Positions 11,101-42,850 of a DNA stretch of 64,000 nt are shown in pieces. The notes beneath the pieces are model-generated. The model was not told the DNA's origin, did not search any database, and saw only the letters and a program-made list of their open reading frames with translations. Within the stretch, counting starts at the first letter, position 1; each line of letters opens with the position of its first letter. The translations under genes and the position numbers were made by a program. The DNA is taken from assembly GCA_938743325.2 (NCBI GenBank), contig OW568863.1:1054001-1118000 (forward strand), read 5' to 3'. The DNA is from Pycnococcus provasolii (lineage: Eukaryota > Chlorophyta > Pseudoscourfieldiophyceae > Pseudoscourfieldiales > Pycnococcaceae).

Positions 11101-11180
11101 ATGAATGTGAATGGTGTGAATGGACGACCGACCGTTGCACATAGTAAAGTACGTTCCATTACTGAATGAATGAATGAGCG
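11101..11180 (-). repeat. Post-stop 3' element, copy 1 (CdsA)
   Basis: Given in the direction of the gene it follows (CdsA, minus strand; stop at 11207-11209), the element starts about 27 nt after the stop with CATTCAGTAATGGAACGTAC, continues TTTACTATGTGCAACGGTCG and ends TCCATTCACACCATTCACAT. The CATT at its start is reiterated. It shares this sequence and orientation with the copies at 14154, 21646, 32761, 36661 and 42771. Confidence 0.85.
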
Positions 11181-11206
11181 ATCTTTGCCTTTCTTATTTT
11201 TCTCTT

Positions 11207-12586
11207 TCATGTCACATAAGGAAACAGGACGGCTGTGCCAGGTGGAAGCAATGCTGACAGCGTGAAGGCGCCTTTGCTCAGCCAGGTATACCAGTACCAG
11301 AAGAAGTAGCAGAGAGCTCCTGTAAAGATGTAGCTGTCAAATCGGTCGAGCAGGCCGCCGTGCCCGGGAAGCACGTCACCGCTATCTTTAATGTTCACCT
11401 CGCGCTTCAGGGTGCTTTCGATGAGATCGCCGATAATTCCGCCGACGAAGCAGATAAGTCCGACGCAAATGCTCGCCCACAGGTGCACGGGTGCACCGAG
11501 AGCGGCTCGCACGCCGACGGCGCAGAGCACGGCACTGATCATGCCGCCGTACGCACCTTCGACCGTCTTCTTGGGGCTCACTGGGCTTAGTGGCGTGGAG
11601 CCAAATAATCGCCCGAACGTGTACGCACCCACGTCAGCGCTGACGACGCACAGCAGGCTTGTGACGGTTGCGGCGAGTCCAGTCGTCCATCCGCCGTCCA
11701 CGACGATTCCTGTGGACGCAAGCCACGACGGCACGTCGTTAGAGAGCGGTATTGAGATGTTTCGAAGCCTTGCCCAGAAGCTGGGGAGGTAACCGCAGTA
11801 CACGAGTCCAAACACGAGGCTTGCGATTTGTGAGAGTCGGGCGAGGTTTCTCTTCGGCTGACCTAGCTTGACTTTTCGTGAGGCTCTGACAATCAGCAGC
11901 TGCGAGAGCAGCCAGAACACGCCCACCTCGAAGATGCCCGACTTGATTCCGATGTGCGTACCTACGACGCAGAAGAGGCACGTGACGAGTAGAGTTTTCT
12001 GCAGGAATGGCGGGTATCCCTTGAATCCTCGTCCTCTTCCTTTCTGTATGACAATCTGGTGGTACTCTCGCGCGCACTGCAGGCTGATGAGTGACACCGT
12101 TGCGCAGAACACGAGTCCTCCCCTGAATGCGCCAAACCCTCCGACGATACCCACGGCGAGTCCAAAGACGATGCGTCTTGCAAGTTCGCCCTTCTTTTTC
12201 TGTTTCTTTTCTCCTTCTTCCACTGCGGCGTCTGCAGGAGGCTCAGGAGAAGGTTGCATCAAAAGGTCTTTCGTTTGCTGCTGCTGCTGCCCATCTTCTT
12301 CTCCTTCATCATCATCATCTTCTTCCTTATTATTATCTGGCGAGGACGGTGATGTAGACGCCGCCGCCGCCGAGTTTGTCGTTGACGAAAGGGGCGAACA
12401 CCACAGACGAGCATGATTGGAATTATAAGGACAAACTCCCGAACGGAGACTACCCTTGAAAGCAGACGACGACAAAGACAACCAAGGTGAAGAGCACCTA
12501 GAAGTCTTCCCGACGTTCTTCGAAGACGAAGAAGGACGAGCACGCGGACGTAAGGACGAGGACGTAATGGAGGACGAGGTCGCCAT
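11207..12586 (-). CDS. cdsA: Phosphatidate cytidylyltransferase (CDP-DAG synthase), probably plastid
   Basis: 459 residues from the ATG at 12586. The C-terminal half is the CdsA fold: several membrane segments, SPKKTVEGAYGG, and the family signature near residues 393-420, seen as LIESTLKREVNIKDSGD followed by LPGHGGLLDRFDS. The enzyme makes CDP-diacylglycerol from phosphatidate and CTP, the precursor of phosphatidylglycerol. The first ~90 residues are Ser/Arg-rich with few acids, as in a plastid transit peptide, then comes an acidic/Gln-rich linker. By analogy with plant CDS4/5 it probably serves thylakoid phosphatidylglycerol synthesis. Telomere-like repeats lie upstream and the 3' element lies just after the stop. 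Confidence 0.92.
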   Translation of the reverse strand: MATSSSITSSSLRPRARPSSSSKNVGKTSRCSSPWLSLSSSAFKGSLRSGVCPYNSNHARLWCSPLSSTTNSAAAASTSPSSPDNNKEEDDDDEGEEDGQQQQQTKDLLMQPSPEPPADAAVEEGEKKQKKKGELARRIVFGLAVGIVGGFGAFRGGLVFCATVSLISLQCAREYHQIVIQKGRGRGFKGYPPFLQKTLLVTCLFCVVGTHIGIKSGIFEVGVFWLLSQLLIVRASRKVKLGQPKRNLARLSQIASLVFGLVYCGYLPSFWARLRNISIPLSNDVPSWLASTGIVVDGGWTTGLAATVTSLLCVVSADVGAYTFGRLFGSTPLSPVSPKKTVEGAYGGMISAVLCAVGVRAALGAPVHLWASICVGLICFVGGIIGDLIESTLKREVNIKDSGDVLPGHGGLLDRFDSYIFTGALCYFFWYWYTWLSKGAFTLSALLPPGTAVLFPYVT

Positions 12587-13184
12587 TACTTACCGTGTTC
12601 CGGAAAGAAACGGCGTGGGAAAGGAGCGAGGGGAGAGACCTGAAAGGGTTCCTCAGTGTTGAAGGGAGGGGGTGACGGGGCAGGCGGATTGATTCGCGAT
12701 AGAGAGAGCTCTGGATGGCAACACCTGATTTTAATCGCAACGGAACTCCACTCGACTCCACTGAAATCGGAATGGCAAGTTGGGTTTGGGCGGGCAATAA
12801 AGATTGCTTCGGGTAAGGGGTTCCGGATGCGTTAGGGTTAGGGTTATCTGTATCTGGGGATCCCCTGGTTTTTACGTTTTCCCTTGTTTAGTTTAGGGTT
12901 AGGGTTACGTGGTTCGGGTTCGTGTCCCTTAACCGGTTGGTTATTAGGCGGTGGTGGCGGCGGCTTGGCTTATTGGCTAGATTTCCTCGTTCCGCCACCA
13001 GAGCTCTCAGTCTCTCTCTCCTTATCATAGTCTATCATTTATCGTCACAGCAGGCCGGCGGTCAGTCAGTGACTTGCTCGCATCCTTTCCTTTCCTTTCC
13101 TTTCCTTTCTGTTTGTTGTCTCTGTGCTCGTTCTGTGTGTTCTATATAGTTTCTTTTTTCCATAATAATACATTTGATAAGCAA
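12587..13184. promoter_or_regulatory. Divergent CdsA / IMP4 promoter with telomere-like boxes
   Basis: 600 bp between two divergent start codons. It contains GTTAGGGTTAGGGTTA at 12831-12846 and TTAGGGTTAGGGTTA at 12893-12907. In plants, AAACCCTA telo-boxes mark promoters of ribosome-biogenesis genes, and IMP4 is one. A TTTCC pentamer repeat lies at about 13085-13109, some 80 bp before the IMP4 ATG. The promoter reading is inference from position. Confidence 0.6.
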
Positions 13185-14120
13185 ATGGACGGCTTTTCGC
13201 GCCGCGCGTCACGTCTGCGTCGCGAGTACCTCTTTCGCAAGTCGCTCGAAGGCTCTGAGCGCGCCGCGTACGAAAAGAAGAGAAAAATTCAACAGGCACT
13301 CGCAGAGGGAAAACCGCTGCCGACGGAACTCAGGACGGAATCCGAAAAACTGCGTGCGGAATCCGCGCTCGAAGACGCAACCACGGAACTGGCCGTCGAC
13401 GACGAGTACGCGACGTACGACGGAAAGCCGAAAATCATCGTCACCACCTCGAGACAACCTTCAAGCCGACTCATGAAGTTCGCCAAAGAAGTGCGCCTGC
13501 TGTTTCCAGGCGCGTCGCGTGCCAACCGCGGCGGACGTGTGCTCGCGGACATCGTCGAGGACGCCAAGGCGGGCGGGCTGACGGACGTCGTCATCGTGCA
13601 CGAGCACCGCGGCGAGCCGGACGGCATGATTGTCAGCCACCTGCCTCACGGACCCACGGCGTACTTCGGACTCAGCAGCACGGTTACGCGCCACGACATT
13701 CGCGCCGCGGCGCAGAGGGCGGCGGCGGAAGGTGGGGGCGCCGGCGACGACGACGACGAGCAGGGTCTTGCTAACGTGTCGGAGGCGGTCCCGCACTTGA
13801 TTTTTGACAACTTTGGTACCAAGCTGGGCTTGCGTGTGAAGAACATCCTGCAGCACCTGTTTCCCTCAGGTGCGAAGAAAGACGGCAAGCGCGTCATGAC
13901 CTTCTCGAACCAGGGTGAGTTTGTGGAGTTTCGGCACCACACGTACACGAAGGGGAAAGGTCGAGGTGACAGCCTTACACTCGCGGAGGCGGGACCTCGA
14001 TTTGCGATGCGTCTGTACAAAATCACGCAGGGCACGGTGGACGAGACGGAGGCGGAGAGCGAGTTTGTGCTGCGTCCTTACTTGAACTCCAAGAAAGCAC
14101 GCCGGGCAACCTTGGGCTGA
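13185..14120 (+). CDS. IMP4: IMP4, U3 snoRNP / SSU processome Brix protein
   Basis: 311 residues from the ATG at 13185. The frame is open upstream but encodes a hydrophobic run unlike the family. The N-terminus (MDGFSRRASRLRREYLF) is a close match to IMP4, and the Brix domain starts near residue 85 with KIIVTTSRQPSSRLMKFAKE, then LLFPGASRANRGG and ADIVEDAK. The C-terminus has the expected EAGPRFAMRLYKITQGTVDE. An acidic insert (GDDDDE) is also present. IMP4 binds the U3 snoRNA in the nucleolus and is needed for 18S pre-rRNA cleavage. Length fits the family (~290-320). The 3' element begins about 34 bp after the stop. Confidence 0.95.
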   Translation: MDGFSRRASRLRREYLFRKSLEGSERAAYEKKRKIQQALAEGKPLPTELRTESEKLRAESALEDATTELAVDDEYATYDGKPKIIVTTSRQPSSRLMKFAKEVRLLFPGASRANRGGRVLADIVEDAKAGGLTDVVIVHEHRGEPDGMIVSHLPHGPTAYFGLSSTVTRHDIRAAAQRAAAEGGGAGDDDDEQGLANVSEAVPHLIFDNFGTKLGLRVKNILQHLFPSGAKKDGKRVMTFSNQGEFVEFRHHTYTKGKGRGDSLTLAEAGPRFAMRLYKITQGTVDETEAESEFVLRPYLNSKKARRATLG

Positions 14121-14153
14121 TGACGACGATTTTTATCCTAAAGCCCGCTCGTG

Positions 14154-14243
14154 CAGTAATGAAGTGTACTTTACTCTTTGTCCAGCGGTCGTCCATTCAC
14201 CAGCGTGTTTTTGTACATGATGGCGCCAGTGGTGATATCGAAG
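14154..14243 (+). repeat. Post-stop 3' element, copy 2 (IMP4)
   Basis: In gene direction it begins CAGTAATGAAGTGTACTTTA, continues CTCTTTGTCCAGCGGTCGTC, CATTCAC, then a distal part TTTTTGTACATGATGGCGCC and GTGGTGATATCGAAGG. The distal part is shared with copies 3 and 4, so this is a medium-length copy that lacks some of the middle. Confidence 0.85.
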
Positions 14244-15225
14244 GTTGTATCACCTCTATATCTAGGCGGCCATGTAACCCTAACCCTAATCCTCCCTTAC
14301 TCTGTATCCCCGAACGCCGCGCGGGCGACGTCTGAATGAGGCGAACCCCTACTTTCTGAGAGTTTGCGCGTGCGAGTCCATGGGCACGGCGGCAAAAAAT
14401 ATCCTGCACCTCTGATGTGTCCGCAAGGCTTGCACGTGACGGCATGCAAGCCTTCCTGCTCATGTGTTTTGTTGCACACACGTATGATAGTCTATGTAGT
14501 ATGTACCATACCGTCGATGCCTTGCAAAGTTGCCAGCGAAGACGGGCAAGGATGCGCATATCATCATGCGAAGAAGGCGTCAAGCGCCAACGCAAATGAG
14601 GCAACGAAGGTGCAAGGAAGGTCATCACTCCCGATATCACAAACACGCCAGAAACCCTACCAAATACCAAAACCCAAACACGCCAGACGGCAACCCCCAA
14701 CGCGAAAAAAAGTAAAAAACTCACGCCAAATGAGAACCAAATGCGGCACAAAACCAGCCCCTTACTTCTCCGTCGCCTTTGGGCTTTGGCCTGCGAGGCT
14801 CATTTTCTTTCGCTGATATCAGGTTTGTCAGGGGAGACGGCAGACGGGAGAGGGGCCGTGAGCCGATGAAAACGGGGTAAGGGAATCCACCCAGCGTGCA
14901 GCACCAACAACGAGTGTGAATGTGAGAGTGTGAGGCTGGCAGAAAAAGAAGGAAAGGAGGGAAACAGGGGTGCCCTGCAGAGAGTCTGGGGCACACTGGT
15001 TTGTTGTTGGGTTGTCCCCCCCCTCGCTCAACCAACACGGGACGGCCGCACCCTGACGTTGACACGAAGCGCTTCGATTGTTAGCCCTTCGTTGCCCTGG
15101 GGAAGACTCCAGTGATCTGAGTCCTCCCGTTCCCGTTCCCGTTCGCGTCTGTCTCCTCTCGTTGGTCCCCCTCCGTCCTTCACATACTTGTCTGCATACT
15201 TGTTGTTTACTACAGTATTCTAGCC
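14244..15225. other. Spacer between IMP4 and aldolase with a telomere-like box and a hairpin
   Basis: About 980 bp. TAACCCTAACCCTAA is at 14275-14289. A perfect 10-bp inverted repeat (AAGGCTTGCA / TGCAAGCCTT, 10-nt loop) is at 14425-14454. No convincing gene is seen. The last ~150 bp before 15226 should hold the aldolase promoter and 5' UTR (a CGTTCCC-rich run at ~15127-15145). Confidence 0.55.
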
Positions 15226-16855
15226 ATGTCCGCCTTCACTGGTACGTGTGTGTGGGTTGGTTGGGTTGGTTGTGTCTTGTGTGGATTGGTTGTGTCTTGT
15301 GTGGGTTGGTTGTGTCTTGTGTGGGTTGGTTGTCTGTGTTCATGGGTTGGTTGGGTTGTCTGTGTTCATGGGTTGGTTGGGTTGGGTTGTTAGATCTACG
15401 TGGTGGTGGTGATGGTGGTGATGTACTTCCTTGTTATATCACGTACTTGGATCTGGGTGATGGTGGGTGTCTTGGTGATGTTCTTCATATGTGTGTGTGT
15501 GCGAGTGTGTGTGTGTCACCCTCCACAAACAAATAAACAAGCACACACAAGCAAGCGTCGCGATGAGTGAGAGATAAACTGTGTCTCCCCCTTTGTTGGT
15601 GTTTTTTTTCGATGGCACACACACGAAAGAGAGAGAGACAAGAAAAAAAAAACTCACAAGAAAAAAAACAAACAAACACACACAACAAAATACTACGTTG
15701 TTAGCTCGTCCCACAGCCAAGATCTCGGCGCCGCGCCGCTCCGTTCGCGCCGTGCGCACGCGCGCCGCGGCGACGGTCGGTGCTGACTTCAAGCCCGGCG
15801 TCATCACCGGCAAGGAGCACCTCGCTCTGCTCGACCACGCGCAGAAGAACGGATACGCCATCCCGGCTGTCAACTGCACCATGTCGCCCATCATCAACTG
15901 CTGCATGGAGGCGGCGAAGAAGGCGAACGCCCCCATGATCATCCAGTTCTCCAACGGAGGTGGCGCTTACATGACGGGCAAGGGAACGGGCGCGGAAGCC
16001 ACCGAGGCTGCCGTGCTCGGCTGCGTCGCCGGCGCGCTGCACGTGCGCACGATCGCCAAGACGTACGGCGTTCCCATCGTGCTGCACACGGACCACTGCG
16101 CGAAGAAGCTGCTCCCGTGGTTCGACGGCCTGCTCGAGGCGAACGAGAAGTACTTCGCGGAGAACGGCGAGCCGCTCTTCACCAGCCACATGCTCGACCT
16201 CAGCGAGGAGCCCATGGAGGAGAACCTCGAGATCTGCGCCAAGTACCTCGAGCGCATGGCGAAGATCAACTGCTTCCTTGAGATTGAGATTGGAATCACG
16301 GGAGGAGAGGAGGATGGCGTCGACAACAGCGACGTCGCGCCGGAGGACCTCTACTCGAAGCCGGAGGAGATCCACCAGGTGTACAAGGCGCTCAACCCCA
16401 TCGCACCGGGAATGTTCAGCGTCGCCGCCGCGTTCGGCAACGTGCACGGAGTGTACAAGCCGGGCAACGTGAAGCTCACGCCGGAGATCCTGAAGAAGGG
16501 ACAGGAATACGTCAAGGCGCAGGAGAACCTTGACTCGGACAAGCCAGTGAAGTTCGTCTTCCACGGTGGCTCGGGATCGAGCACCGAGGAGATCCGCGAG
16601 GCGATTGGCTACGGCGTCGTGAAGATGAACATCGACACGGACACGCAGTGGAGCTTCTGGGATGGCGTGCGTGCCTACGAGTCGGAGAAGAAGGGATACC
16701 TTCAGGGCCAGATTGGAAACCCGGACGGTGAGGAAGTGCCCAACAAGAAGTACTACGACCCGCGTGTGTGGATTCGCTCGGCGGAGAACTACACGGTCGA
16801 TCGCCTCCTGAAGGCGTACGACGACCTTAACGCGATCGGCGCGCTTGGCAAGTAA
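15226..16855 (+). CDS. Class II fructose-1,6-bisphosphate aldolase, plastid; one intron
   Basis: The mature part (from about 15775) is a full class IIA metal-dependent aldolase: YAIPAVNCTMSPIIN, VLHTDHCAKKLLPWFDGLL, EIEIGITGGEEDGVD, FGNVHGVYKPGNVKL, FHGGSGSS and KMNIDTDTQWSFWDG. It cleaves or forms fructose bisphosphate in the Calvin cycle or glycolysis. No ATG at the aldolase frame gives a sensible start, but exon 15226-15241 (ATG, MSAFT) ends at a GTACGT donor. Joining it to 15705 gives MSAFTARPTAKISAPRRSVR, a good plastid transit peptide, in frame and 388 residues long. A second in-frame acceptor (CACAG, exon from 15717) would drop four residues. The splice model is inferred from sequence only. 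Confidence 0.92.
15242..15704 (+). other. Inferred aldolase intron with GT-rich minisatellite
   Basis: GT...AG intron of 463 nt, phase 1. Its 5' half (about 15249-15395) is a tandem array built from GGGTTGGTTGTGTCTTGTGT and variants such as GGTTGTCTGTGTTCATG, about seven units. Its 3' half is A-rich with CA/AAAC runs. Two acceptors 12 nt apart (TTAG at 15704, CACAG at 15716) both keep the frame. Confidence 0.75.
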
Positions 16856-17067
16856 ATAGGGCCATACCTGCAATGCGTGTAAATCTCTTTAGGGGGTGCG
16901 GGTGAACGAAGCAGCCACAAAACCACAATGTAGCTGAAACGTTTTTTACTTTGAAAAGGCACACACGCCATTCCATGCGGCCCGAAGGCGGTGCACGAGG
17001 ACGCCGCAGCGCGTACACCTTTTCCTTCATCAAAAAGAAATCATAGAATAAATGCACAGTTTTACTT
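16856..17067. other. Convergent 3' spacer, aldolase / SAC3-type gene
   Basis: 212 bp between two stop codons. A TGTAAATC about 25 nt after the aldolase stop resembles the green-algal TGTAA polyadenylation signal. No 3' element copy is present here. Confidence 0.4.
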
Positions 17068-17304
17068 CTACTGCTGTAGCAGAGTCGACTTGAGAAAGTC
17101 ATTGCAGCTTAAATTCGCGTCGCCGTGTGCGACGGCTTCGTCGTCGCGTGGCATGAATAACTTCCCGGCACTCTCCTTCGTGAGAAAGGTGGTACCGCTC
17201 TCCACAATTGCGCCATGAGCTTCCAGCCAAGCAACTGTGAGCTGGATTTGGATCGCCTTGTCGTCGTCATTATCACCGCCGCCGCCACCACCCTCCTGCT
17301 CGCC

Positions 17305-17346
<42 letters not shown>

Positions 17347-19392
17347 TGCAAATCCGAGCGCCATGGCGACGCATTCCAAGTCCACGTTTGGCCGATACGC
17401 AGCTGTAATAGCCTGCGCCGCGGTAAACCTCATAGACTCGATCACATCCTTGCGCTCGAGAAGCTTTCTACTTAGGTGAGGTGCAGAGCGCAGCAACCTT
17501 ACGTAACGCACGTAGTCTCCGCTTCGTAGAGCACGTATGCTGTCCATTGCATGCGGAATCTCGACACTCGTAGTCCCGCAACCACGCGTTTCCCTGAGAC
17601 GTGCAACCGCAGTCATGTAGGCGCTGCGCAGCGCAGGAGACATGGCAAAGGAACCACGGTTGCCAACCGTGGCCTCGTACAGCACGCGGCACGCATAAAA
17701 TTCGTCGCGGCAGCTCGTCGATGGCTCCTCTGGTACAGAACGATACAGGTCCATGAGACGCGAAAGGCACTGATTCATGTCCACGACGTCGCCGTACTCC
17801 AGCGCCATTCGTGCGTGGGCCTCGTACACCTCCACGGTAAGCTCCGTCTTCACATGCTGCACGGTGAGATCCTGCCTCATGCCCTTCATCTGATCCTGCA
17901 TGTAGAAGTACGTCGCTTTCCCCTCGCGCCACATAGCAAGAGCGCGGTCAAGCGCCTTACGAAGCACATGTGGCGGACGCACGGTCGCCGGGTCTGGCGC
18001 GGACGTCAGACGGAAGTAGCTCTTCTCCAGATTCTCGCACGTGCCCACGATCGGCTCCGCCGTGTAAAGGTCCTCCTTCGTTATGTTGCCACCGCTGTAC
18101 GTGGTGATGCTCAGCGCCGCCTGGCTGAGAGGCTTGGCAACCGTTCCATCAGCGTTGCCGGCACCAAAGCGACCAGCGCGCTCCGATCGCCGGCGAACCT
18201 CCATGGCATTTACCGCGCCGCTCGCCTGCGCCTGCGCCTGTTCCTTCCCTGCCCCTCTCGCGGCAGCTACCTTCTGCTTCTTTTGAGCCTTCTGCGCAGC
18301 CTTCCTCTCCGCCTTCTCCGCCTTGGCGCGCAGCTTCGCAGCCTTCTTGTTCTGCGCCACCTGCTCCATATCCTCCCACCTCCGTCGCGCTGCACTCGCA
18401 CGTGCGCTCTGGCCTTCGTCCCAACGGCCACCGCGTCGACTGCCGCCGGCGACGACGGCGCCCGAGTCTTCGCTCACGTAAGATGTCATCGGAGCGCTGC
18501 CGCGGCTCCGGCGGTCGTCTACCGCCATTGCAGTTGCGTGTGCCGTTGGCCTCCCCGGAGGTGGCGGCGGAAAGTTGTTTCCGTGTGCCGTTGGCCTCCC
18601 CGGAGGTGGCGGCGGGAAGTTGTTTTGCCGCATCTGCGGTGGCTGATATTGCTGGTGGTGTTGGTGGTGTTGGTGTTGGTGTGGGTTAGTTGCCGACGAC
18701 AGACTCTTCAGCACGGGCTCTTTTTCCCAGTCGTGAGTCCACAGCGTTCCTGCCTGGTTAGCACTGTTGATGAGTTCCTTAAGTTCCGCCTGCGACGCTG
18801 TGCGCAACTCCGGCGTCGTCGCGAGCGTGAAGCACCGTTCGACGAATCGACGCAGCGACTCGGGCCATGCCTGCGTCGACGGCGTCGACGGTGCGGGCTG
18901 GCGTGCTTGTTGTTGTTGGTGCTGCTGCTGCTGCTGCTGCTGGTGTGTTTGAGCGTTAACGCGCACGTACGACGGTTGTTGTTGTTGCTGCTGTAGTTGC
19001 TGCGTCGCCGGCGCTGCTGCTGCTGTTCTCATGTGCGGCGGCATGTACGCCGCCTGCGAGACATGCTGAGCGTGTTGAGCAGCAGCATGAGCGTGCTGCT
19101 GCTGTTGGAGCTGCTGGTGCTGGTGCTGTTGGAGCTGCTGGTGCTGGTGCTGCTGGTTCTGCTGTTGGAGCTGCTGGTGCTGCTGGAGCTGCTGGTGTTG
19201 TTGTTGTTGTTGTTGATGAGGTTGCGTTTGTTGTTGCTGCTGCTGCTGCGCCTGTTGCGCGACGGCGGTTCGCGCGGCGTGCGCTGCAGCGTGCGCTGCT
19301 GTGGTTTGCGTGTATCCCGGCTGCTCGATGTAAAACCTATAATAGTGCTGGTAGTAGTGCTCGGTAACCTGCTGCTGCGACGCCATTGACAT
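17068..19392 (-). CDS. SAC3/GANP-family protein (LENG8/THP3 type), Q-rich
   Basis: 774 residues from the ATG at 19392 (another ATG two codons in). Residues ~20-200 are very Gln/His-rich with repeated LQQHQ units. A 15-residue proline repeat (NNFPPPPPGRPTAHG) occurs twice in tandem. A Lys/Ala coiled stretch follows. The C-terminal third is the SAC3/GANP domain: VGTCENLEKSYFRLTSAPDP, VRPPHVLRKAL, YFYMQDQMKGMRQDLTVQHV, then AHARMALEYGDVVDMNQC. This family (THP3, SAC3C, LENG8) couples transcription to mRNA processing or export. Near the end there is an unbroken Asp run of about 14 residues. The long Gln and Asp tracts are built from imperfect triplet repeats. Confidence 0.88.
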
Positions 19393-19656
19393 ACATAAAA
19401 AAAATCTAAAATCTAAAATCGAAAAATCGGAGTGGTTGTGGAAATGGAACGCTCTTCTTTTGTGGTTGTGCACAGGGTTCCTTCACGCCGACAGATGGAG
19501 GGGTTTTGGACTCTCGGTTTACCGTAGAGGTTTTAGGGTTTTTGGTTAGGGTTTTATTGTCCTGGTTAGGGTTAGGGTTAGGGTTAGGGTTAGGGCTGAC
19601 ACTTGCCCATCTTCGTCTTCATCCTCGGTTTCGTTTGAATTAACTTATTGTTGCCT
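19393..19656. promoter_or_regulatory. Divergent promoter with a telomere-like array
   Basis: 264 bp between two divergent ATGs. GGTTAGGG-type repeats run 19564-19596 (five TTAGGG units in a row), preceded by TTTTAGGGTTTTTGGTTAGG around 19531. It is the longest telomere-like run in the window. Position suggests a telo-box-like promoter element; an old internal telomere insertion is the alternative. Confidence 0.6.
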
Positions 19657-21642
19657 ATGGCGTCCAATGGCGGTGGCGGTGGTGGTGGCGGCGGCTGGTC
19701 ACTTGCGGGTTCACTGAACGAATCCTTGAAGTCGTCGTTGGCGAATATCTCCAATATGGATATCACAACTGTCGTGGACACGATATCGGATTCCGCATCC
19801 TCCTCGCTCAGCCGAGTCACGCGCGACCTCGACAAAACGCTCTCCGAACTTAACCAGTTCGAACCTGCAGCTGCCGCGCCTGTGGCTGTGGAAGTTCCAC
19901 CCGCAGATTCCAACCCCAAAGAAGGAAATGGGAAAGACGCGACGAAAAAAACCTCCAAGAAGTCCGCGACGACGACGACGCAAAGACAAAACACGAACTC
20001 GCAAGGCGAAGGAGCCACCAAGGAGGCGGTGGTGCCTCATGCTGCTGCGGATAAAACGCCGCCGCATTCACCACCACCACCACCAGTGTCAGTGTCAGCA
20101 GAAACTACTGACAACGACGAAGCAAACGACCTCAACGACGCAAACGCACAAACTACCGCGAACAATGCGGTGTCGACGCTCTCGCAGGACGATAGACTCG
20201 CACTGCTCGAGGAGCAGGCTATCCAAGCACTGGGCGACCTCGAGGAAAGTGAGCGCCGACTCGCCGAGTCGAGAGAAGAAGCAAAGGCGCTGAGAGCCTC
20301 GTTGAACGACGTGCGTGGCGAGACTGAAAAAACGAGACTAAGAGCGGAGGAGGCGGAGCGAGAGCTGCGCGAGGCGCGTGCAGATGCGAAGCGAATGGAA
20401 CGTGACTCAGCCGCACTCATCACGTCGCAAACAACCTCGGCGGATAGAAGGCTCAACGATGCCACGGAGTCCGCGCAGCGTGCGGTTGCAGACCTTCGGC
20501 GGAGACACGCCGCGCTCGCGGACTCGGTGAGGTCGCAAATGCAAAATGGGTCCCAGGCACTCGTCGAGTACGTGTCGGGTGAAGTGCGTTCGGTGCTCGC
20601 TTCCACCGCTGGTCGGCACTCCGCAGAGATCTCTAGACTTCGCTTAACCGCCGCGGAGGCTGAGGAAGCACGCAAGAGCGCGCAGGCGGCGGTGGCGGAC
20701 GAGCGCGCGAAAAGTGAGAGGCGCGCCAAGTCATTCCTACAGCAGAAGGAGGCGTGGGCTCAGCGGGAGGCTGAGCTTGGCAAAGTGCCGGTATCCGCTC
20801 CAGATCCAGCTCTTGCAACCATCGTCATCGATGGCATTACGTACGACGCCGACGCCGTCGCATCGCTCGTTTCGCGCCTCGAGCATGCGGAGAAGCTTGC
20901 CGTGACTGCGCAGGAGGCTTCGAGCAACGCGGAGGCGCGTCTTTCCCACGTGTCTGACGAATTCGCCACAGCATCAGCACGCGTCGAGGCGCTCGAGCAG
21001 GCTCGCGAACACGATGCAGGCGTGCGCGCACAGCTGCAGGCGCGCCTTCAATCTGCTCAGGCGAGTCTCGCGGATGCTCGCGCACGCGCCGAGGCTTTTG
21101 AGACGCCCATCCTGTCGACGGCAGCCGGAGGAGCATCTTCGTCGCCTCGATCGGCAGATGCCGGCCCCGGTGCCTCCGCGATGGAGGCTCTGACACAAGC
21201 GCGAAGTGCGCTTGCGAAGGCGGCGGGCAGCGCGCTCGCGCCGTTCGACAAGGCGGACGGCCCGGGAGCGCTCGTGGCTGAGGTGCTCGCGCTCGCGGCA
21301 GCCATAAGCTCGGAGACTGCGCCAACGGCACCTGCCGCGTCACGCGGGCCGCTTGCCGCTGCCCTCGCCAAGGCTGAGGACGACCTGACAACGGTGGCAG
21401 AGCGCGCAGCCAAGGCTGAGGAGTCGAACGCGCAGCTGCGTTCGCAGCTCAACACACTCAAGCTGCGCGAGAAGGAGTTGATGTGGCAGGTTCGCATGGC
21501 GGGTTCGCAGGCGTCCTCCGAGTCGGCATCCGCCTCCGCGAGCGCTGCCGGTGGCACGCAGGGTGGCTCGCAAGGTGGCTGGCTAAGCGACTTGGTGCTT
21601 CGGTGCACGCAGCCCCGCCAACCAAGCGCTAACGTTAGCTAA
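19657..21642 (+). CDS. Long coiled-coil protein, golgin-like
   Basis: 661 residues from the ATG at 19657. A Gly run (nine residues) opens the protein, followed by WSLAGSLNESLKSSL and RVTRDLDKTLSELNQ, then a disordered Lys/Thr/Pro region. From ~180 to ~610 it is almost continuous heptad-type coiled coil rich in Ala, Glu and Arg (for example ALLEEQAIQALGDLEESERR). The tail is Ser/Gly-rich with a final LVLRCTQPRQPS. No catalytic motif, zinc finger or membrane segment is visible. It resembles Golgi tethers in composition, but other coiled-coil proteins would look the same, so the function is unassigned. The 3' element starts four bases after the stop. Confidence 0.75.
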   Translation: MASNGGGGGGGGGWSLAGSLNESLKSSLANISNMDITTVVDTISDSASSSLSRVTRDLDKTLSELNQFEPAAAAPVAVEVPPADSNPKEGNGKDATKKTSKKSATTTTQRQNTNSQGEGATKEAVVPHAAADKTPPHSPPPPPVSVSAETTDNDEANDLNDANAQTTANNAVSTLSQDDRLALLEEQAIQALGDLEESERRLAESREEAKALRASLNDVRGETEKTRLRAEEAERELREARADAKRMERDSAALITSQTTSADRRLNDATESAQRAVADLRRRHAALADSVRSQMQNGSQALVEYVSGEVRSVLASTAGRHSAEISRLRLTAAEAEEARKSAQAAVADERAKSERRAKSFLQQKEAWAQREAELGKVPVSAPDPALATIVIDGITYDADAVASLVSRLEHAEKLAVTAQEASSNAEARLSHVSDEFATASARVEALEQAREHDAGVRAQLQARLQSAQASLADARARAEAFETPILSTAAGGASSSPRSADAGPGASAMEALTQARSALAKAAGSALAPFDKADGPGALVAEVLALAAAISSETAPTAPAASRGPLAAALAKAEDDLTTVAERAAKAEESNAQLRSQLNTLKLREKELMWQVRMAGSQASSESASASASAAGGTQGGSQGGWLSDLVLRCTQPRQPSANVS

Positions 21643-21645
21643 TAT

Positions 21646-21780
21646 CGCTCATTCAGTAAAGTAATAGAGTTTACTTCGTCCAACGGTTGTCCATTCACAT
21701 CACTCACATTCAACGGCCAGCCCATTCAATGGCACCGCTTAGCAACAACCTTTGTACATGGCGCTGGTGATTTCGAGAGT
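21646..21780 (+). repeat. Post-stop 3' element, copy 3 (longest)
   Basis: In gene direction it begins CGCTCATTCAGTAAAGTAAT, then TTTACTTCGTCCAACGGTTG, TCCATTCACATCACTCACAT, an extra internal part, and the distal TTTGTACATGGCGCTGGTGA followed by TTTCGAGAG. About 135 bp, beginning 4 nt after the stop codon of the 19.7 kb gene. Confidence 0.85.
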
Positions 21781-21819
21781 TTTATCAGGGCGCTTGACAT
21801 TAGAACTCAAGGATTCGTC

Positions 21820-22302: not shown

Positions 22303-22680
22303 CTTAGTGTTTGAACGACGAGGTCGTCGACTCTTCGCCTGAGCTAGCTGACGGTCTAGACTCTAGAGAAGAAGTATGCTGACAGGTCCGAGTAACTCAT
22401 ATGCGTCGCCACTCGCCGGCGTTGAGGAGGACGATGCTGTTCGGCGGGACAGGCTCCTGCAATACGCGGATCTCTTCTGTGATCGACTTAGAGTGACTTA
22501 GAGTGTCTGTCTGGCTGTAGGCCTGGGAGAGGGGCCCGCGAAAAAAAGGGGGCCCGGCGCGAGGTGGTTTCGAAACACGCACCAACGACGCATCCCCATT
22601 TGCACGTTACTTTTTTACAATTTCTTTTTGCCCTTTTTCTACCAGCAAAGCAGCACCCACATTCATCCACATTGACTTTC
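22303..22680. promoter_or_regulatory. VPS8 upstream region
   Basis: About 380 bp. CCAACGACGCATCCCCAT at 22582-22599, about 82 bp before the VPS8 ATG, matches a motif also found before SRP54 (34988) and MATE (44642, same orientation relative to the gene). Nothing else is recognised. Confidence 0.45.
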
Positions 22681-32572: not shown

Positions 32573-32760
32573 TGAAGATATGTTTTACCCTTGTAAGTGT
32601 TTCTTGTCGATCTAAAAACAAAATCAAACAAGTATGCACAAGCGCGACTCTTCGGTCATCGTGCTGATGCACGGTAGGTGGCGATGGCGACGACAACAAG
32701 CGCATGTGGAGCTCTTACGCCGGACGCCAATGAAAAAGCGGCCTACAGTATAGTAGCTTC
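32573..32760. other. Convergent 3' spacer, sialidase-like / UbiA
   Basis: 188 bp. CTTGTAAGTG about 20 nt after the stop could be a polyadenylation signal for the sialidase-like gene. Copy 4 of the 3' element begins at 32761 and belongs to the opposite gene. Confidence 0.4.
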
Positions 32761-32877
32761 AAAATCGGCGCCATGTACAAACACGCGAAAGGGCTGAATG
32801 GCGAATGTGAATTGTGTGAATGGACGACCGTTGGACCAAGTAAAGTGCAATCCGTTCCTGAATAAGGGACCTCAGCC
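32761..32877 (-). repeat. Post-stop 3' element, copy 4 (UbiA)
   Basis: In the direction of the UbiA gene (stop 32888-32890) it begins about 10 nt after the stop: TTATTCAGGAACGGATTGCA, CTTTACTTGGTCCAACGGTC, GTCCATTCACACAATTCACA, a middle part, then GTTTGTACATGGCGCCGATT. It is a full-type copy of about 117 bp. Confidence 0.85.
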
Positions 32878-32887
32878 ACAAAAACAA

Positions 32888-34123
32888 TTACAAGAACGAG
32901 CTTGCGTACGCAAGTGCGATGGTACCGGCACCCACGGGACGCATGATGGCGTCGACGGTTAACTGAGCCTTATTCTTCATCTCTTCTTCCGTCGTCCCCA
33001 CACGCGCGCCTCCGCACACACGCGTCAAGCTTCGCGCCATGGTAAGAGCTGAGCCGATGGAATGCGCGGCGAGCGCTCCAACGCCCATTGCGGCAAACCT
33101 TCCCACGAGTCCCTGCGAAGCAAGGACGTGTGGCGCCGCCAAGCTCGCACCCGCGACGAGGATGCATGCGGCACTCAGCAGAAAAGCCTCGACGATTCGA
33201 GCGGCGTTGTGCGTACCAAATCGAACTGGTATGGTACGTACGTTCGCATCGGCATCTTCCTCAACGTCTGTGATGTCCATAACTATCTCTCGTGCAACCA
33301 CACATAGGAACAGGAAGATGGGAGGCAGCTTAGCCACAGCTGCCCAGTTACCCGCTGTCGCCGCGAGGCTTCCTGCGACGGCGGCGGCAGAGATGACGAA
33401 AGCGACGGAGACGTTTTTGATTGCCGTCGCCGGCTTCAGCAGAGGCGTGTACACGACGGTGATGAGCGCGGAGGCGGCGACGACGTGCCTTAGCGGCGGC
33501 GGGTCAAGGAATGCGATGGCTGTGAAGCATGCTAGGTACATGACGAAGCTGAGAAAGAGAGCCTTTTCTGGCGAGACTTTTCCGCTTGGCAGTGGTCCTT
33601 CCTGGTCGACTCCTGCGGCGAAGTCGAAGTACGAGTTGAGCAGGCAGCTTGCGAGCGCGACGAGCGAGCTGAGTGCGATGACGACAAGAAGCGTCGGGTG
33701 AGCTAACGCGTGAATGCCCTGGCTGGACATGCCTCCCACGAGAGCGATGAGCGCCGACGGCAGGTAGTTGTGTATGCGCATGAGCGGGATCATCGGCTCG
33801 AAGTTGTTGACGATGGACGCCGGGCTGAACATGGCGTACGGCGACGTATCCTCTGACGGGTTTCGGATCACCACGGAAGCTCCTCCTCCAACGACGTGAT
33901 TGCCACCACCAGCAGCAGCGATAGCGTCGTCGTCGTCGGGATTGATATGATGATTATTCCCATGGTGCGGTGATGCGACGAAGCAACGCCAAGCATGCCA
34001 ACCACCACCACCACCACCACCACCACCACGCGCCAAACCACCAAACCGTTTGAGAGGAGGATGATGAGGTCGCCCAACCACTTTACCACCAACCCGAACA
34101 CGAGTATTACACGACGGCGGCAT
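32888..34123 (-). CDS. UbiA-family prenyltransferase, probably plastid
   Basis: 411 residues from the ATG at 34123. Both Asp-rich prenyl-diphosphate/Mg motifs are present: LLNSYFDFAAGVDQ (NxxxD type) and DITDVEEDADANVRTIPVRF. They lie among about eight hydrophobic helices. The first ~110 residues are basic, then Gly- and His-rich with an eight-Gly run, compatible with a transit peptide. UbiA enzymes attach prenyl chains to aromatic or glycerol acceptors (plastoquinone, tocopherol, phylloquinone, chlorophyll, ether lipids). The acceptor here cannot be told from motifs alone. The 3' element starts directly after the stop. Confidence 0.87.
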   Translation of the reverse strand: MPPSCNTRVRVGGKVVGRPHHPPLKRFGGLARGGGGGGGGGWHAWRCFVASPHHGNNHHINPDDDDAIAAAGGGNHVVGGGASVVIRNPSEDTSPYAMFSPASIVNNFEPMIPLMRIHNYLPSALIALVGGMSSQGIHALAHPTLLVVIALSSLVALASCLLNSYFDFAAGVDQEGPLPSGKVSPEKALFLSFVMYLACFTAIAFLDPPPLRHVVAASALITVVYTPLLKPATAIKNVSVAFVISAAAVAGSLAATAGNWAAVAKLPPIFLFLCVVAREIVMDITDVEEDADANVRTIPVRFGTHNAARIVEAFLLSAACILVAGASLAAPHVLASQGLVGRFAAMGVGALAAHSIGSALTMARSLTRVCGGARVGTTEEEMKNKAQLTVDAIMRPVGAGTIALAYASSFL

Positions 34124-35130: not shown

Positions 35131-36648
35131 ATGGTTCTCACGGAGCTCGGCGCGCGTCTCAGTGGCGCGCTCGTGAAGATGTCCAAGTCAAGTAAGGTGG
35201 ACCAGGATGTCGTCGACGCGTGCCTGAAGGAAATATGCACCGCGCTCCTCCAAGCCGACGTGAACGTGCGCCTCGTGAAACAACTCCAAACCAACGTGAA
35301 GATGTCGCTCAATCTCGAGGACCTGCAGTCCGGGTTCAACGCGCAGAGAATCCTTCAAAAGTCGGTGTTCCAGGAACTCACGCGTCTCATGGACGGAGGG
35401 AAGCCATGGGTACCCAAAAAAGGAAAACAGTCCGTCGTCATGTTCGTGGGACTGCAAGGCAACGGGAAGACGACGACGTGCACCAAGTACGCGTACCACT
35501 ACAAGCGGAAGGGATTCAAGGTGGCGATGGTTTGCGCAGACACGTTCCGTGCAGGTGCGTTCGACCAGCTCAAGCAAAACGCGACGAAGGCGCGTGTCCC
35601 GTTCTTCGGAAGCCACACGGAAACTGACCCCGTGAAGATCGCGGAGGAGGGCGTCGAGCGATTTCGCACGGAAAAGGTGGACATCATCATCGTCGACACG
35701 TCGGGAAGGCACAAGCAGGAGAGCGCGCTGTTCGAGGAAATGCGAAACATCAGCGAAGTCGTGCAGCCCAACAACGTCATCTACGTCATGGACGGGGCCA
35801 TGGGACAGGCGGCACACGACCAGGCTCTCGCTTTTAGGGACACGGTGGACGTCGGGAGCATCATCGTCACAAAAATGGATGGGCACGCCAAGGGTGGCGG
35901 AGCGCTCAGCGCGGTCGCCGCGACGCGGTCGCCAGTCTGCTTCATCGGCACGGGCGAACACATGGACGAGTTCGAGCCATTCGAGGCGGAGTCGTTCGTC
36001 AGCCGCCTGCTCGGTCTGGGTGACTTCAAGGGCCTGATGAATAAAATCACGGACGTCATTCCAGAGGAGGCGCAGGAGGAGATGATGGAGAAGCTGTCGC
36101 AGGGTTCGTTCCCTCTGCGTTTCCTGTACGATCAGTTCACGAATATCCAGGAGATGGGGCCGATGTCGCAGGTGATGTCCATGCTCCCTGGCATGGCGAA
36201 CATGATGGGAGGTGGTCGTGACAAGGAGTCTGCGGCGAACATAAAAAAGTACATGACGCTCATGGACAGCATGACCACGAAGGAGCTCGACAACCCTGAC
36301 ACGGAGAAAAACATGAAGATGCTGAGCGAGACGAGCCGCATCAATCGCATCGTGCGAGGTGCGGGACGGCAGTACCGCGACATGTATGAGCTCATCACGC
36401 AGTACAAGATGATGGCGAAGATGGTGGGGAAAATGAAGCAGATGAAGCTGCCGAAAAAAGGCCCGGTGAATGCTCGCGCGATGAACCAAAGTGTTCAGCA
36501 GATGTCTCAGGCGATTCCGCCGCATCTGCTCAAGTCGATTGGAGGCATGGGAGGTTTGCAGACTTTGATGAAGCAACTTGAGGGTGGTGGTGGACCAGGT
36601 GGTATGGGTGCTCTTGGTGATATGATGAAGAGCTTGGGCATGGGTTGA
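35131..36648 (+). CDS. SRP54: SRP54, signal recognition particle GTPase (cytosolic)
   Basis: 505 residues from the ATG at 35131 ([14 protein letters not shown]). The N-domain helical bundle (to ~95) has the [15 protein letters not shown] motif. The G-domain (~100-300) carries [13 protein letters not shown] (G1), [24 protein letters not shown] (G3), [15 protein letters not shown] (G4) and [14 protein letters not shown]. The Met-rich M-domain (~310-500: [32 protein letters not shown]) binds signal peptides and 7S RNA. Ser at the start of the G4-linked loop and overall length match eukaryotic cytosolic SRP54, not the chloroplast form. It targets ribosomes to the ER. The tail ends in a Gly/Met-rich segment. 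Confidence 0.98.
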
Positions 36649-36660
36649 AACCAGAGTTTT

Positions 36661-36692
36661 GCTCATTCAGTAATCGAATGTACTTTATAGGT
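36661..36692 (+). repeat. Post-stop 3' element, copy 5 (SRP54, short)
   Basis: Starts 12 nt after the SRP54 stop: GCTCATTCAGTAATCGAATG then TACTTTATAGG. Only the stop-proximal ~30 nt of the element are present, which suggests this is its conserved core. Confidence 0.75.
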
Positions 36693-36704
36693 TCAAAAAA
36701 AAAT

Positions 36705-39700
36705 TCACATGTTACTAATGGCGCTCTCCACAAGCGAGGCGGCTGCGTGGGCTCCCGCGCTTCGCATCGCTCGAGCGCTGGCCTTCACAAGCGACCAAGG
36801 CACGTACACGCCACCTCTCTCTGCAGCCTTTCGGTCAATCGCAGAGACGCGGTAGCGCGGTTCAAGCACCAGCCTACTTTCAAGAAGTTCCGCAGCCTCG
36901 TCGTAACGCCCGTGCTTCAGAAGAATGCGCACGTAGCCTGGCACATCCGCGCCACGCGCGCCAAATGCACCGACACCTCCCGCAGGATCGTCGTCGGAAC
37001 CGCCGCCGCAACGGTCGTGCAGCCAGCGTGGGAGGCGCATGCGTGGTTCGGCAGACAGCGCGGCATCCGCAACGGCAATGCTCAGCCTGCCAGCGCGACA
37101 TTTCTCCGGCGACTCGTACTGCTCGAGCAAATCACGAAGCTCGTCCCACGGGTCTGGAGATGAGCCAGCGCCGGCCCAGTCCGACGCCACGTCGTCTGGT
37201 TCCGTTCCAAGCGTCTGCGCCACGGCATTCGCGGCGCAAGCCGACAGCACGCGCACGATGAGCGCCTCGTGCTCCCCGCTCGCCGTGGCTGACGAGCCGG
37301 GGGGTGCAAGGCGTTCCACGAGTGCCAGGGCACCCGCATAGTCCTTCGCAGAAGCTCTCGCGAGCACCGCAGCGCGTGCGGCGCCGCGTGCACCCGCACC
37401 GAGAGCAGCCACGTCGCCACCCATGGACGCATGCAGCGCCTCAGCACGCTTCAGCAGCGCATCTACGGTGCCATCTGCCGCCGATCCTAAGCTCGCCTTC
37501 AGGCGAAGCGCGCATGACAGCGCCTCAGATGACGCCACCGCAGCCAGAGCGCGAGCGGACGACGCGTCCACGGCTGCGGGAACCTCGTTCGCCGCCACGT
37601 TCGCAGGATGAAATGTCTCCAAGTCCGCAAGCACCGCGTCTTGAGGATCGTCGCCTAGCGTGCCACCATTGCCATTCTTCTGGCGCTTCAGCGGCGACAT
37701 GATCGCGTCGGATCCAGCTCCCGAGGCCGCGTCCGCGGTCTCGGTGGTCAACGCCGTCGTAGCGCCGCCGCCGCCGCCGGCAAACGAGTGCACTGCGGCG
37801 CCGCTCGAGGCGGCATCGTCGAGGCGCGAGGCGCACAGCGCCAGCGCGTTAGCTCGCTCGCAAAGCAGCCACGTGCGCTTGTCGTCTGCGCCGCCAACCG
37901 ACGGGCCACCTGGTCGCATGCTGGACAGATCTGCCACCGCGCTCGCGCACCGCGCTGCGTAGCGATAAAGGCTTCGTGCGCTGGATACAGCGTCATTTGC
38001 CCCGTCGTACAACCTTTTCAGGAGGAGGTAGGCGTGAGCACATTCGCCCGGCTCGCCGAGGTCGATGGGAACCTTCACCGGTGCATACGATGCAGTGCGC
38101 TCGATGGCGCCCCAAACGTGCTCCTCCACGCTCTCGCAGAAAGCGGGAATGCCAGCATCGGGATTTGACCTGCTCGCAAGAACACCGCGCAGCGCCCTGT
38201 TCTCCAGCGTCTGCCACATCGACGGTGTGGCAGCCACGGTGCGGGCTAGTACCGACAGGTCGTCGCAGGCATGCGAGACAGGCTGCTCGATGGCGTAGTT
38301 CAAAGCCTTCTCGAGCCACCCTGAAGCCTCCATAGCGTCGCTAGCCTCCTCCGCGTGCTTCAGGCTGAGCGAGAAGCATGTCCCAAGCACGCGAGGGAGC
38401 ACGTGCTCCAGCGCCCTCGCCGCCTCCGCTGCCAGTGCTGGAGTGGCACTGTCGCCATCCGCAAGCTTTGACTGAATCTCGCGAGCCTTGCTAAGGGAAG
38501 CCTTCGCAAGCGCAAGCGCGGGACGGCGAAGCCCGGACCTCTCGAACAGGCGCACACCCGTCTCGGTGTACTCGAGCTCGGCGAGGGACAGACCTACGCC
38601 CCCTGCAGCGCCGGCGGGTGACTGCGGCGCGTACGGCTCGAAGTGAATGCCCTGCTGGATCGAACGGAACAGCGCGTGCGCACGCGTCGCACCCAGAGGA
38701 GATGCCACGCCAGCGCAACCTCCCGCTATGATCGCCGCGCGATCTGCAAGATAATCTGGCGCAGCCTCAGAAGAGAGCGTGGACGCTGAGCGACCATCAG
38801 CGCGCGGGGCATCCGTCGACGCGGCAATGCGAGCCACTGCACCGGCAGCCAGGCTTCGGATGAATCGGCACCCTGGTAACTCGGCACCATCGTCCAAGAG
38901 CTCGTCAACGAGCACCAGCAGGTGCTCCATGTCGCGCTCCCCCAGCTGTGGGTACAGCAGTGCACACGCCTCCAGCATGCTGATGTGGAAACGTAAGTCC
39001 GAGGCGTCGTTGGAAGGGACGGTGGCGGCGGCGGCGGAGGTAGAACTGTCGGAGAGGTTGTAGAGAAGCTTGTGAAGTACATGCTCGGGGCTGTGCGCTG
39101 CAACAGCACGCGAGCCAAGTAGCAGGGATGCAAGGCTAGCCCGCCGGCTCCATGTGCGCGTGCCGTCGCCATCGGATGACCCACCGCCGCCGCTGGTCTC
39201 GCACAGCCAGAGTCCCGCGCGCGCTCGCGTGCACGCACGAAGCAGCTTAGGCAGCGTTTCAGCCACGAGTACGGCGCGCGCGCGAGGCGCGAGCGGCACC
39301 AGCGTGGGCGGGAGGCGGCGCACTTCGCAGGAAAGTGCCACCACGGTGGCCGTCGCATTCAGCACGATCGTCAGCCCACGGACAATGGTGCGCATGAACC
39401 CCACCGACTCAAGCTCGGCTTCGTCGCCACGCGACATGTCGCCAGCGTCGCCCGATGTGCTCGCGAGGCTCGCGAGACGCGAGGCTGCCTCAGCCGCGGC
39501 GCCAAGACCACCAGGCTCGGGCAGTGAGTTGAGCGCGCTCGCGGTGCGTACGAGAAACGCGCGGCAGCTTCGGCCAACAGCTGGCGCTGCCGTCGCCGAA
39601 GGACCTTCTGCAAGCAGGCGGGCACAGGCGTCCGTACCCATGCAGTCGGACTTGGCCATGGCAAGCTCAAGCGGCGCCGCGCCGAGAATCGTGATTGCCT

Positions 39701-41591: not shown

Positions 41592-42770
41592 TGGCGAACA
41601 AAAACTAAAAATGGTAAAAGGAAACACAAAGGAGAAGGAGAAGCAGGATCCTTCCTTGAAAAGTGCCGCTGCAGACGCCGCCGCCGCCGCCACGCAATGG
41701 GCAGCAAAGGGAAGGTTGGTTTTGTGTTTGCCGGATGCCAATAATGGCGGGACCCAGAGGAGCAAAGCAGCTCCCAAACCTCGGGTCTCGGGCTGTCTCG
41801 GGCCTCGGGAGGGGAGAGTCTGCTTTCGGGGTTTCAGGTAGGGTTTTGTACCCTCCCTTACCTTGTATCGACGCGCTCTGCTCGACGAGTGCTCGTCGCG
41901 ACACCTACCTGACCTTCTTGAAAGAACTACGAGTAGTTACAGGGTGCATGCTCTGCGACCGTGGAATTCTCATCGAACGCGAACATTTCAAGCCGAACAC
42001 ACACGACGACGCCATCGTCGCGACATACCGTCGAGCAATGTCATGGCACAACGCCTCCTCCTGGGCAAAGAAGAGATTGAATGGGGTGTCCTTAGACCTT
42101 AAGGATCCATCCTGTGTTTGTTGTTGTTGTAGGAGACGAGACCTTAAGTGAGAAGTGCTTAATTAGGGTTAGGGTTACCCGTAATAGTTGTTATTCATCG
42201 AACACGGCCTTACGTGTTACGACGCGCGATCTCGGAAGAAGACTCGGATCCGACGATCGTCCGTGACGCCGCATGGCGCGAAGTGATAATGCGTGCCGTC
42301 AATATCCGTCTTCCGTGACATGTAAGGCGTCCACTTCTGTTGTAAATGTGTGCGGGGTGCCATGATGCCATCCTCTTCCACTACCAGCGTAACGTTTTGG
42401 AGGCCCTTGACTTCTTTCTCTTATCCTGCCTGACCATACTTTCATGGCGTTTGGGGTAGGCGAGCTCGGTGCCGGGGGCACACAAGAACAATGTTCAACA
42501 ACAATCACTCCACACACCTCCACCTTTAGCAGGCACAAGCGTGTTCCGTTAGCCATTGAAATAATGATTAATGAATTGCAGGTTCGTGCAAATACCGGCT
42601 TGCCTTCCTTCACTGGGAATGGACCAACGACGAGGTGTCCCGGGCCCACGGGAGGAAATTATAACGGACTTTTCTTGAGGCAACAAAATATGATTACCAG
42701 CATACGACGAATCCCATTATCTCTGCTCTCAGACAAAGTTCCGACAGTTTTTCCGACTGCTTTTTGGGCA
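41592..42770. other. 1.2-kb spacer with decayed coding fragments and telomere-like box
   Basis: Upstream of NUP160 and downstream of MATE. On the plus strand about 41878-42110 a frame reads YLTFLKELRVVTGCMLCDRG and ILIEREHFKPNTHDDAIVAT, with a layout recalling small HNH-type proteins of algal viruses and phages (LK..tGC..C....HF...). On the minus strand about 42200-42650 further natural-looking stretches occur (GPGHLVVGPFPVKEGKPVFA; KWTPYMSRKTDIDGTHYHFA). These look like fossil fragments, broken, possibly foreign, and are left as separate pieces. TTAGGGTTAGGGTTA is at 42163-42177. Confidence 0.4.
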
Positions 42771-42850
42771 AGTGTGAATGTGAATGGTGTGAATGGACGA
42801 CATGTTGGACAAAGTAAAGCACACTCCATTACTGAATGAGAGGATCTCAG
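42771..42850 (-). repeat. Post-stop 3' element, copy 6 (MATE)
   Basis: In gene direction (MATE stop 42862-42864) it starts 11 nt after the stop: CTCATTCAGTAATGGAGTGT, GCTTTACTTTGTCCAACATG, TCGTCCATTCACACCATTCA, CATTCACAC. About 80 bp; the distal GTACATGGCGC part is absent. Confidence 0.87.

Follow-up and report, generated by a model that had tools for sequence, protein, structure and literature searches.

A MITE-like transposon positioned behind stop codons in sense orientation in the green alga Pycnococcus provasolii, and its possible retention as a gene 3′ end

In a 64,000-nucleotide (nt) stretch of the Pycnococcus provasolii genome (hereafter the window: contig OW568863.1, positions 1054001-1118000, within the assembly GCA_938743325.2 of 32,333,900 bases in 46 contigs), six genes are followed by copies of one dispersed module, which is the 5′ end of an element of about 1.0 kb related in form to miniature inverted-repeat transposable elements (MITEs). 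The element begins at or just behind a same-strand coding stop codon at 67 of 79 genomic places, and its inverted repeat supplies the stop codon of some host genes. The explanation towards which we lean, with considerable reserve, is that the element has been kept as a ready-made gene 3′ end, with its bias in position and orientation mostly reflecting survivorship and with its distal part lost from most copies.

The count by genomic place began from 80 copies, sampled by element sequence with gene context not used, of which one was dropped for having less than 400 nt of upstream sequence. At each of the 79 places, the best coding open reading frame (ORF) with a stop near the element start was taken, using a codon-usage score trained on the window and a cut-off of at least 15. 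The 67 places have the element start within -60 to +24 of a same-strand coding stop, the stop lying up to 60 nt upstream in 47 and inside the element in 20; at four further places it lies 61-130 nt upstream. Random places near a same-strand coding stop number 75 of 4,952, and a gene on the opposite strand ends at the element start at 1 of the 79 places. An earlier count, now superseded, in which copies were collapsed by sequence, the ORF score was at least 20, and three partial internal matches and one copy with short upstream sequence were removed, gave 51 of 63 at stops, 14 of 3,143 in the control, and one on the opposite strand. The sequence-only reading of the window had named random orientation and position as the outcome that would overturn it, and the bias persisted in this larger sample.

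The anatomy of the element was read from six genomic places that match its distal end with up to three mismatches. Its inverted repeats read CTGAGATCCCTCATTCA... at the 5′ end and ...TGAATGAGCGATCCTAG at the 3′ end; both types are present at five of the six places, and the copy at L063 is without the outer 3′ nucleotides. Exact 8-bp target duplications are found at four of the six (AAAAAAAC, CTTGGCGT, CTTTTTGG, and GTTTAGAT), with a duplication identical at seven of eight positions at one remaining place and none at the other, where the 3′ end is broken. In a looser search with offsets, an exact duplication arose by chance in 5 of 1,925 random draws, and among 63 rows exact duplications were restricted to copies reaching the 3′ end; L073 is a further copy that extends to this end. 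In four 10-kb stretches, the element contains no ORF of at least 250 codons. An autonomous partner with the same ends was not found either, the length at all six distal-end places being 965-1023 nt. A search for the KDZ transposase family, the only transposase family searched, gave no match here, and since its 14 controls were silent too, it is uninformative. With terminal inverted repeats, a fixed-length target duplication, no long internal ORF, and a high copy number, the intact copies show the element to be a non-autonomous, MITE-like DNA transposon of the cut-and-paste kind that contains no long gene. Mobility, one of two origins that the sequence-only reading had suggested for a module of roughly 32-135 nt, is borne out by the inverted repeats and duplications of the intact copies, and the module itself proves to be the stop-proximal part of a larger whole. 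Superfamilies with 8-bp duplications include hAT, P, KDZ/Zisupton, and Novosib. MITEs of these superfamilies share with the element the inverted repeats, the 8-bp duplication, the high copy number, and the absence of their own transposase, whereas the repeat here starts with CTNAG and is without a known autonomous counterpart among the places searched.

The abundance of the element was assessed with four patterns, each of which had no match in its reversed control: an exact 20-mer occurs at 25 genomic places, a 42-mer with up to three mismatches at 60, a 23-mer gives 321 genome matches, and a 28-mer at the 5′ end gives 322. These counts exclude chance as the source of the matches, the other outcome named as one that would overturn the sequence-only reading. 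In 216,625 bases from 70 fetched loci, some of them overlapping, 75 model matches were obtained at E values up to 0.01. Beyond the copies used to fetch the loci, there were nine extra, at L061, L057, L055, L031, L066, L013, L073, and L008, together with a 27-nt fragment in L050; eight extra copies per 216,625 bases scale to about 1,200 per genome. Copy density elsewhere is uneven, with none in a separate 20-kb stretch and six in the 64-kb window. The genome thus holds roughly a thousand copies, which is an order-of-magnitude estimate and no count.

Stop codons are available within the 5′ inverted repeat, which holds TGA, TAA, or TAG from its second nucleotide, and in 12 of the 20 places with an internal host stop the stop stands at exactly this position (+1). 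Reading frames at these places show that the inverted repeat supplies the stop codon of the host in some genes. The consequences of insertion were followed by rejoining the empty sites of six copies (L058, L060, L061, L062, L073, and L083). At L060, a gene end of GGC GTA TGA before insertion became GGC GTC TAG with the element, and at L061 the insertion shortened the reading frame, the old stop lying 43 nt further. TGTAA, a possible native polyadenylation signal, lies 14 nt past the insertion point at L060 and 23 nt past it at L083; at L058, where the host frame is weak, a possible native signal stands at +135, and at L061 and L062 no possible native signal was found within 200 nt of the rejoined site. 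At L073, the rejoined site is followed by an older copy of the element.

UGUAA is the known poly(A) signal of most chlorophytes, with a peak near -17 from the cleavage site in all but one of those in one study (PMC1868727). Candidate signals in this alga were sought in the genes of the window and the fetched loci, comparing 65 genes with a sense copy to 52 without any copy nearby. In the first 60 nt behind the stop of the 52 copy-free genes, TGTAA is found 20 times and TGTAC 11 times, each ranking first among the permutations of its own letters (30 and 60, respectively), and both drop to 4 at 60-120 nt. With positions 90-200 behind the stop as background, AAAAA alone among all pentamers ranks above TGTAA. 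TGTAA/TGTAC is thus likely to be the poly(A) signal of this alga, in which UGUAC may be a second form, and the enrichment in the first 60 nt suggests that 3′ untranslated regions (UTRs) are probably often a few tens of nt long. The element occupies the same few tens of nt behind the stop as these candidate signals, and many copies hold TGTAC about 27 nt into the element. Within 60 nt of the stop, TGTAC is found in 32 of 65 copy-bearing and 6 of 52 copy-free genes (p 1e-5), compared to 6 of 65 and 18 of 52, respectively, for TGTAA (p 0.001). TGTA[AC] lies between stop and element at 7 of the 51 places with a stop up to 130 nt upstream; at one place (L075, the same place as L049), three such motifs do so. 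These motif counts lend indirect support to the earlier proposal of a role in 3′-end formation and point to the element as a putative source of the poly(A) signal of its host gene.

Loss from the element is one-sided. Of 25 matches to a mid-element pattern, 20 were fetched as loci; none of these has lost more than 15 nt at the 5′ end, while the distal ends range from 431 to 1030. The distal-end pattern has 6 places in the genome and the proximal patterns 321-322, a rough comparison since the pattern lengths differ. No target duplication was found beyond chance at the break of truncated copies, which places the losses after insertion or assigns them to another process. Identity of the full-length copies to the reference copy L083 is 80-87%, so that no fresh copy is present among them. 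In most of the 20 mid-element copies (L064-L083), a common short acidic frame (...ESEAETDVFHARVINAWGEDADEDFFENIS) was observed on the reverse strand, at a distance of roughly 370-470 nt from the 5′ end. This acidic stretch stays open for 28 to 156 codons upstream, contains no recognisable gene, and may be left over from a coding region since lost, or be due to chance.

A mechanism in which the element serves as a ready-made gene 3′ end would join these observations as follows. An insertion just behind a stop, in sense orientation, would fall in the interval of the native candidate UGUAA/UGUAC signal. Since the inverted repeat contains a stop and TGTAC follows about 27 nt into the element, such an insertion can give both a replacement stop, the use of which is evident from reading frames, and a replacement poly(A) signal, which the host would probably use. 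Insertions would be tolerated at first and later needed, a form of lock-in, as the native signal would be displaced by up to 1 kb. The distal part would then be free to be lost, while the 5′ end abuts coding sequence, and deletions there would usually hit this sequence or the new gene end; their cost would account for the observed truncation from one side without target duplications. The orientation and position bias would be mostly survivorship, perhaps aided by a transposase that favours the AT-richer DNA just behind genes.

Several observations weigh against this mechanism. Under pure survivorship, many neutral insertions would be expected past the native signal, and only the 7 of 51 noted above are of this kind; these few exist nonetheless, and in the same orientation. 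A cruder first test over 120 nt placed TGTAA 13th among pentamers (18 of 45 genes, 9.9 expected). No TGTA[AC] is found within 150 nt of the stop in 28 of 52 copy-free and 20 of 65 copy-bearing genes, and TTGCAC or TGCAC takes the place of TGTAC in many copies, above all in those of the younger type. Among 18 sequence-distinct young copies, average divergence is higher in the first 50 nt than across positions 50-270, which may be partly due to replaced outer ends; purifying selection on the stop-proximal sequence, not seen in these copies, was dismissed. Eight of the 79 places are without a scoring upstream ORF in reach, one of them being the older copy behind a younger one at L073. Lastly, of 135 called genes, 65 have a sense copy no more than 200 nt from the stop, and in 18 the only copy within 200 nt is reverse-oriented; the latter copies probably belong to convergent neighbours, as in L008, L013, L031, and L084. 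Inward-facing copy pairs were observed at L008, L013, and L031. At L084:961-1252 (C20:705.66-705.95 kb), two convergent genes have one copy at each 3′ end, and the two inverted copies share 94.7% identity over 75 nt, pointing to gene conversion or a local inverted duplication.

The window holds the following copies and host genes, in window coordinates, where R1 denotes a sequence-only model from 44 copies that was run on both strands of the window with filters off.

11049..11187, minus strand: copy 1, behind CdsA; internal gap, with a distal piece at 11049-11087 (blastn); R1 match 11100-11173, 69.7 bits; outer end by sequence reading
11207..12586, minus strand: host CdsA (CTP transferase family); stop TGA at 11207-11209; PF01148, E 6e-54
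14138..14259, plus strand: copy 2, behind IMP4; R1 match 14142-14200, 54.1 bits; distal piece by blastn
13074..14120, plus strand: host IMP4 (Brix domain); PF04427, E 5e-26; Imp4 chains in PDB, E 8.5e-77
21639..21787, plus strand: copy 3; starts CTAATATC and includes the host stop TAA (21640-21642, +1); R1 match 21640-21714, 69.9 bits
19648..21642, plus strand: host ORF of copy 3; no Pfam match
32640..32876, minus strand: copy 4, behind UbiA, the longest in the window; R1 match 32798-32874, 74.4 bits; 69.6% identity over 270 aligned positions to L015 (blastn)
32888..34123, minus strand: host UbiA prenyltransferase; PF01040, E 9.5e-30
36653..36687, plus strand: copy 5, behind SRP54, the shortest, between two convergent stops; R1 match 36658-36687, 21.3 bits
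35080..36648, plus strand: host SRP54; PF00448, E 5.7e-76
42765..42850, minus strand: copy 6, behind MATE; starts CTGAGATCC; R1 match 42772-42843, 75 bits; blastn 42850-42765
42862..44499, minus strand: host MATE transporter; PF01554, E 7.8e-11

R1 recovers all six copies that had been located from the sequence alone and yields no seventh match up to E 1. Five of the six had been used to train it, which partly accounts for their scores; the sixth (36658-36687), from outside the training set, reaches E 9.7e-6. The distribution of three hosts per strand holds in the window, and Pfam supports the hosts earlier named as CdsA, IMP4, UbiA, SRP54, and MATE; for the host of copy 3 (19648-21642), the Pfam search gave no match. 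The description of each copy as starting after a stop codon applies to five of them and fails for copy 3, which starts at 21639 with the stop inside it. The lengths first given were too short, as the UbiA copy extends to about 32640 and the CdsA copy includes the distal piece past its internal gap. At 36648-36705, the stops of SRP54 and a convergent 1690-codon ORF are 57 nt apart with copy 5 between them, and the 3′ ends of the two genes probably overlap. Among the 120 matches listed for the SRP54 protein, two show 100% and 85% identity, and those of green algae and land plants that come next do not exceed 64%; for the IMP4 protein, two of the matches listed show 99% and 72% identity and the others do not exceed 58%. 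On the minus strand at 475-501, CTTAAGGTCTGACATTTTCAGTAAAAC behind a stop at 502 resembles by eye a very decayed inverted repeat of the element, and R1 is silent there. Also observed were a tandem repeat with a 20-nt unit (TGTGTCTTGTGTGGGTTGGT) at 15251-15350 and short intrachromosomal runs of TTAGGG-type repeats at 12826-12918, 19540-19580, 42157-42188, and 45323-45343; CCCTAA-type runs adjoin some copies elsewhere (L004 and L021).

The alternative that survives best, although we think it unlikely, is targeted integration, in which the transposase would be guided, always with one polarity, into the stretch between stop and poly(A) signal, for example by the 3′-end processing machinery, RNA polymerase II pausing, or chromatin at gene ends, so that the bias is made at insertion and not by selection. 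Equally tentative is the corresponding view of the element as a portable terminator with directed integration, carrying a stop in its inverted repeat and, some 27 nt on, a poly(A) signal. The five full-length copies whose 3′ inverted repeat is intact all belong to the 67 sense places behind a coding stop, and the scarcity of insertions behind TGTA[AC] (7 of 51) likewise favours targeting. At L073, and probably at L050, a younger copy lies ahead of an older one, next to the stop, and at L073 the two have the same orientation; this shows repeated use of one interval, which fits targeting and survival alike. However, base preference at the 8-bp target is weak in 44 copies (position -7 is A/T in 84%, -1 is G in 50%), and a sequence motif at the target was dismissed on this ground. 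Neither a transposase nor a host partner was found, the transposase search being the KDZ one with silent controls, and with full-length copies at 80-87% identity to L083 there are no very young copies to separate insertion from selection. The strict target-site choice once proposed for the module fares well as a description of the pattern, but targeting is inseparable here from the survival of useful insertions.

Many MITE families sit near genes, and the stop-proximal end of the element is without extra conservation, both of which would suit an ordinary MITE that is merely tolerated behind genes and offers no useful stop or poly(A) signal. This is improbable, since it predicts both orientations and intergenic spread, whereas the other orientation accounts for 1 of 79 element starts and the host stop is inside the element in 20 of 79.

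A retroelement similar to long or short interspersed nuclear elements (LINEs or SINEs), inserted antisense by target-primed reverse transcription with its 3′ end at the stop and truncated distally at its 5′ end, is attractive for the single fixed end, as in LINE copies, and at a few copies the stop-side junction shows a run of A or T. It was dismissed as very improbable, given that intact copies have inverted repeats and fixed 8-bp duplications and that duplications at the break of truncated copies do not exceed chance.

We give just as little credence to a conserved 3′-UTR RNA element for mRNA stability or translation, spread by another route. The hundreds of genome matches to the stop-proximal part and the position behind stops at 67 of 79 places would accord with such an element, whereas the proximal sequence is not especially conserved. 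Conserved RNA structure, for which a check had been proposed, was not found: the fold is no better than that of shuffles (z 0.38 and 0.61), no consensus base pairs are seen in 44 aligned copies, and an Rfam search of the window gave no match, and a structured element was dismissed on fold and pairing. The accompanying idea of a family spread with genes finds no support either, as the identified window hosts belong to different families. Viral or phage carriage was dismissed, an exact 21-mer having 0 matches in viral contigs and none in phages.

Many 3′-end replacements in one genome form a natural series through which tolerance of a new stop and a new poly(A) site becomes approachable, and the same series bears on whether a transposase can sense gene 3′ ends. 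In such genomes, it is unsafe to annotate 3′ UTRs as native sequence. If the reading as a directed terminator is true, the element would be to gene ends what introners are to introns, and perhaps one in ten genes of the alga would have had its 3′ end rewritten, a fraction suggested by the estimate of about 1,200 copies and by 24 gene ends in the 64-kb window.

In the open-licence literature, with subscription papers outside the scope of the search, no report was found of a transposon family at stop codons in one orientation. A bacterial case is QMITE2 in Coxiella, a MITE at the 3′ end of enhC that affects the stop of translation (PMC5896051). It shares with the element insertion at a gene 3′ end and an effect on where translation stops; it is described for one such bacterial gene, without a genome-wide stop-linked pattern. 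In macaque, AluYRa1 in sense orientation at gene ends provides a setting for polyadenylation (PMC7878741). A sense-oriented mobile element and a polyadenylation setting at gene ends are common to both cases. AluYRa1, however, is a retroelement, whereas the element described here lies at the stop in one orientation at 67 of 79 places and also supplies stop codons. A minority of AluYRa1 insertions reportedly act in this way.

The closest parallel is with introners, which are MITE-like DNA transposons giving rise to introns in Micromonas, Aureococcus, and other organisms (Gozashti et al., 2022, PMC9860276). In that paper, the term "UTR" appears 0 times and "stop codon" once, in the methods. Introners and the element are both non-autonomous DNA elements that occur in many genes and carry a signal by which the host gene survives their insertion, and some introner families also have inverted repeats and short duplications. 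They differ in that introners carry splice sites, whereas the element stands at gene ends with a stop and a probable poly(A) signal, the host frame ending at most 60 nt before the element or in its first 24 nt at 67 of 79 places. By analogy, the element would work like introners, with gene ends replacing introns, but it is no introner. Introners show that transposons can make introns genome-wide, and the family described here suggests a parallel route by which they may make gene ends.

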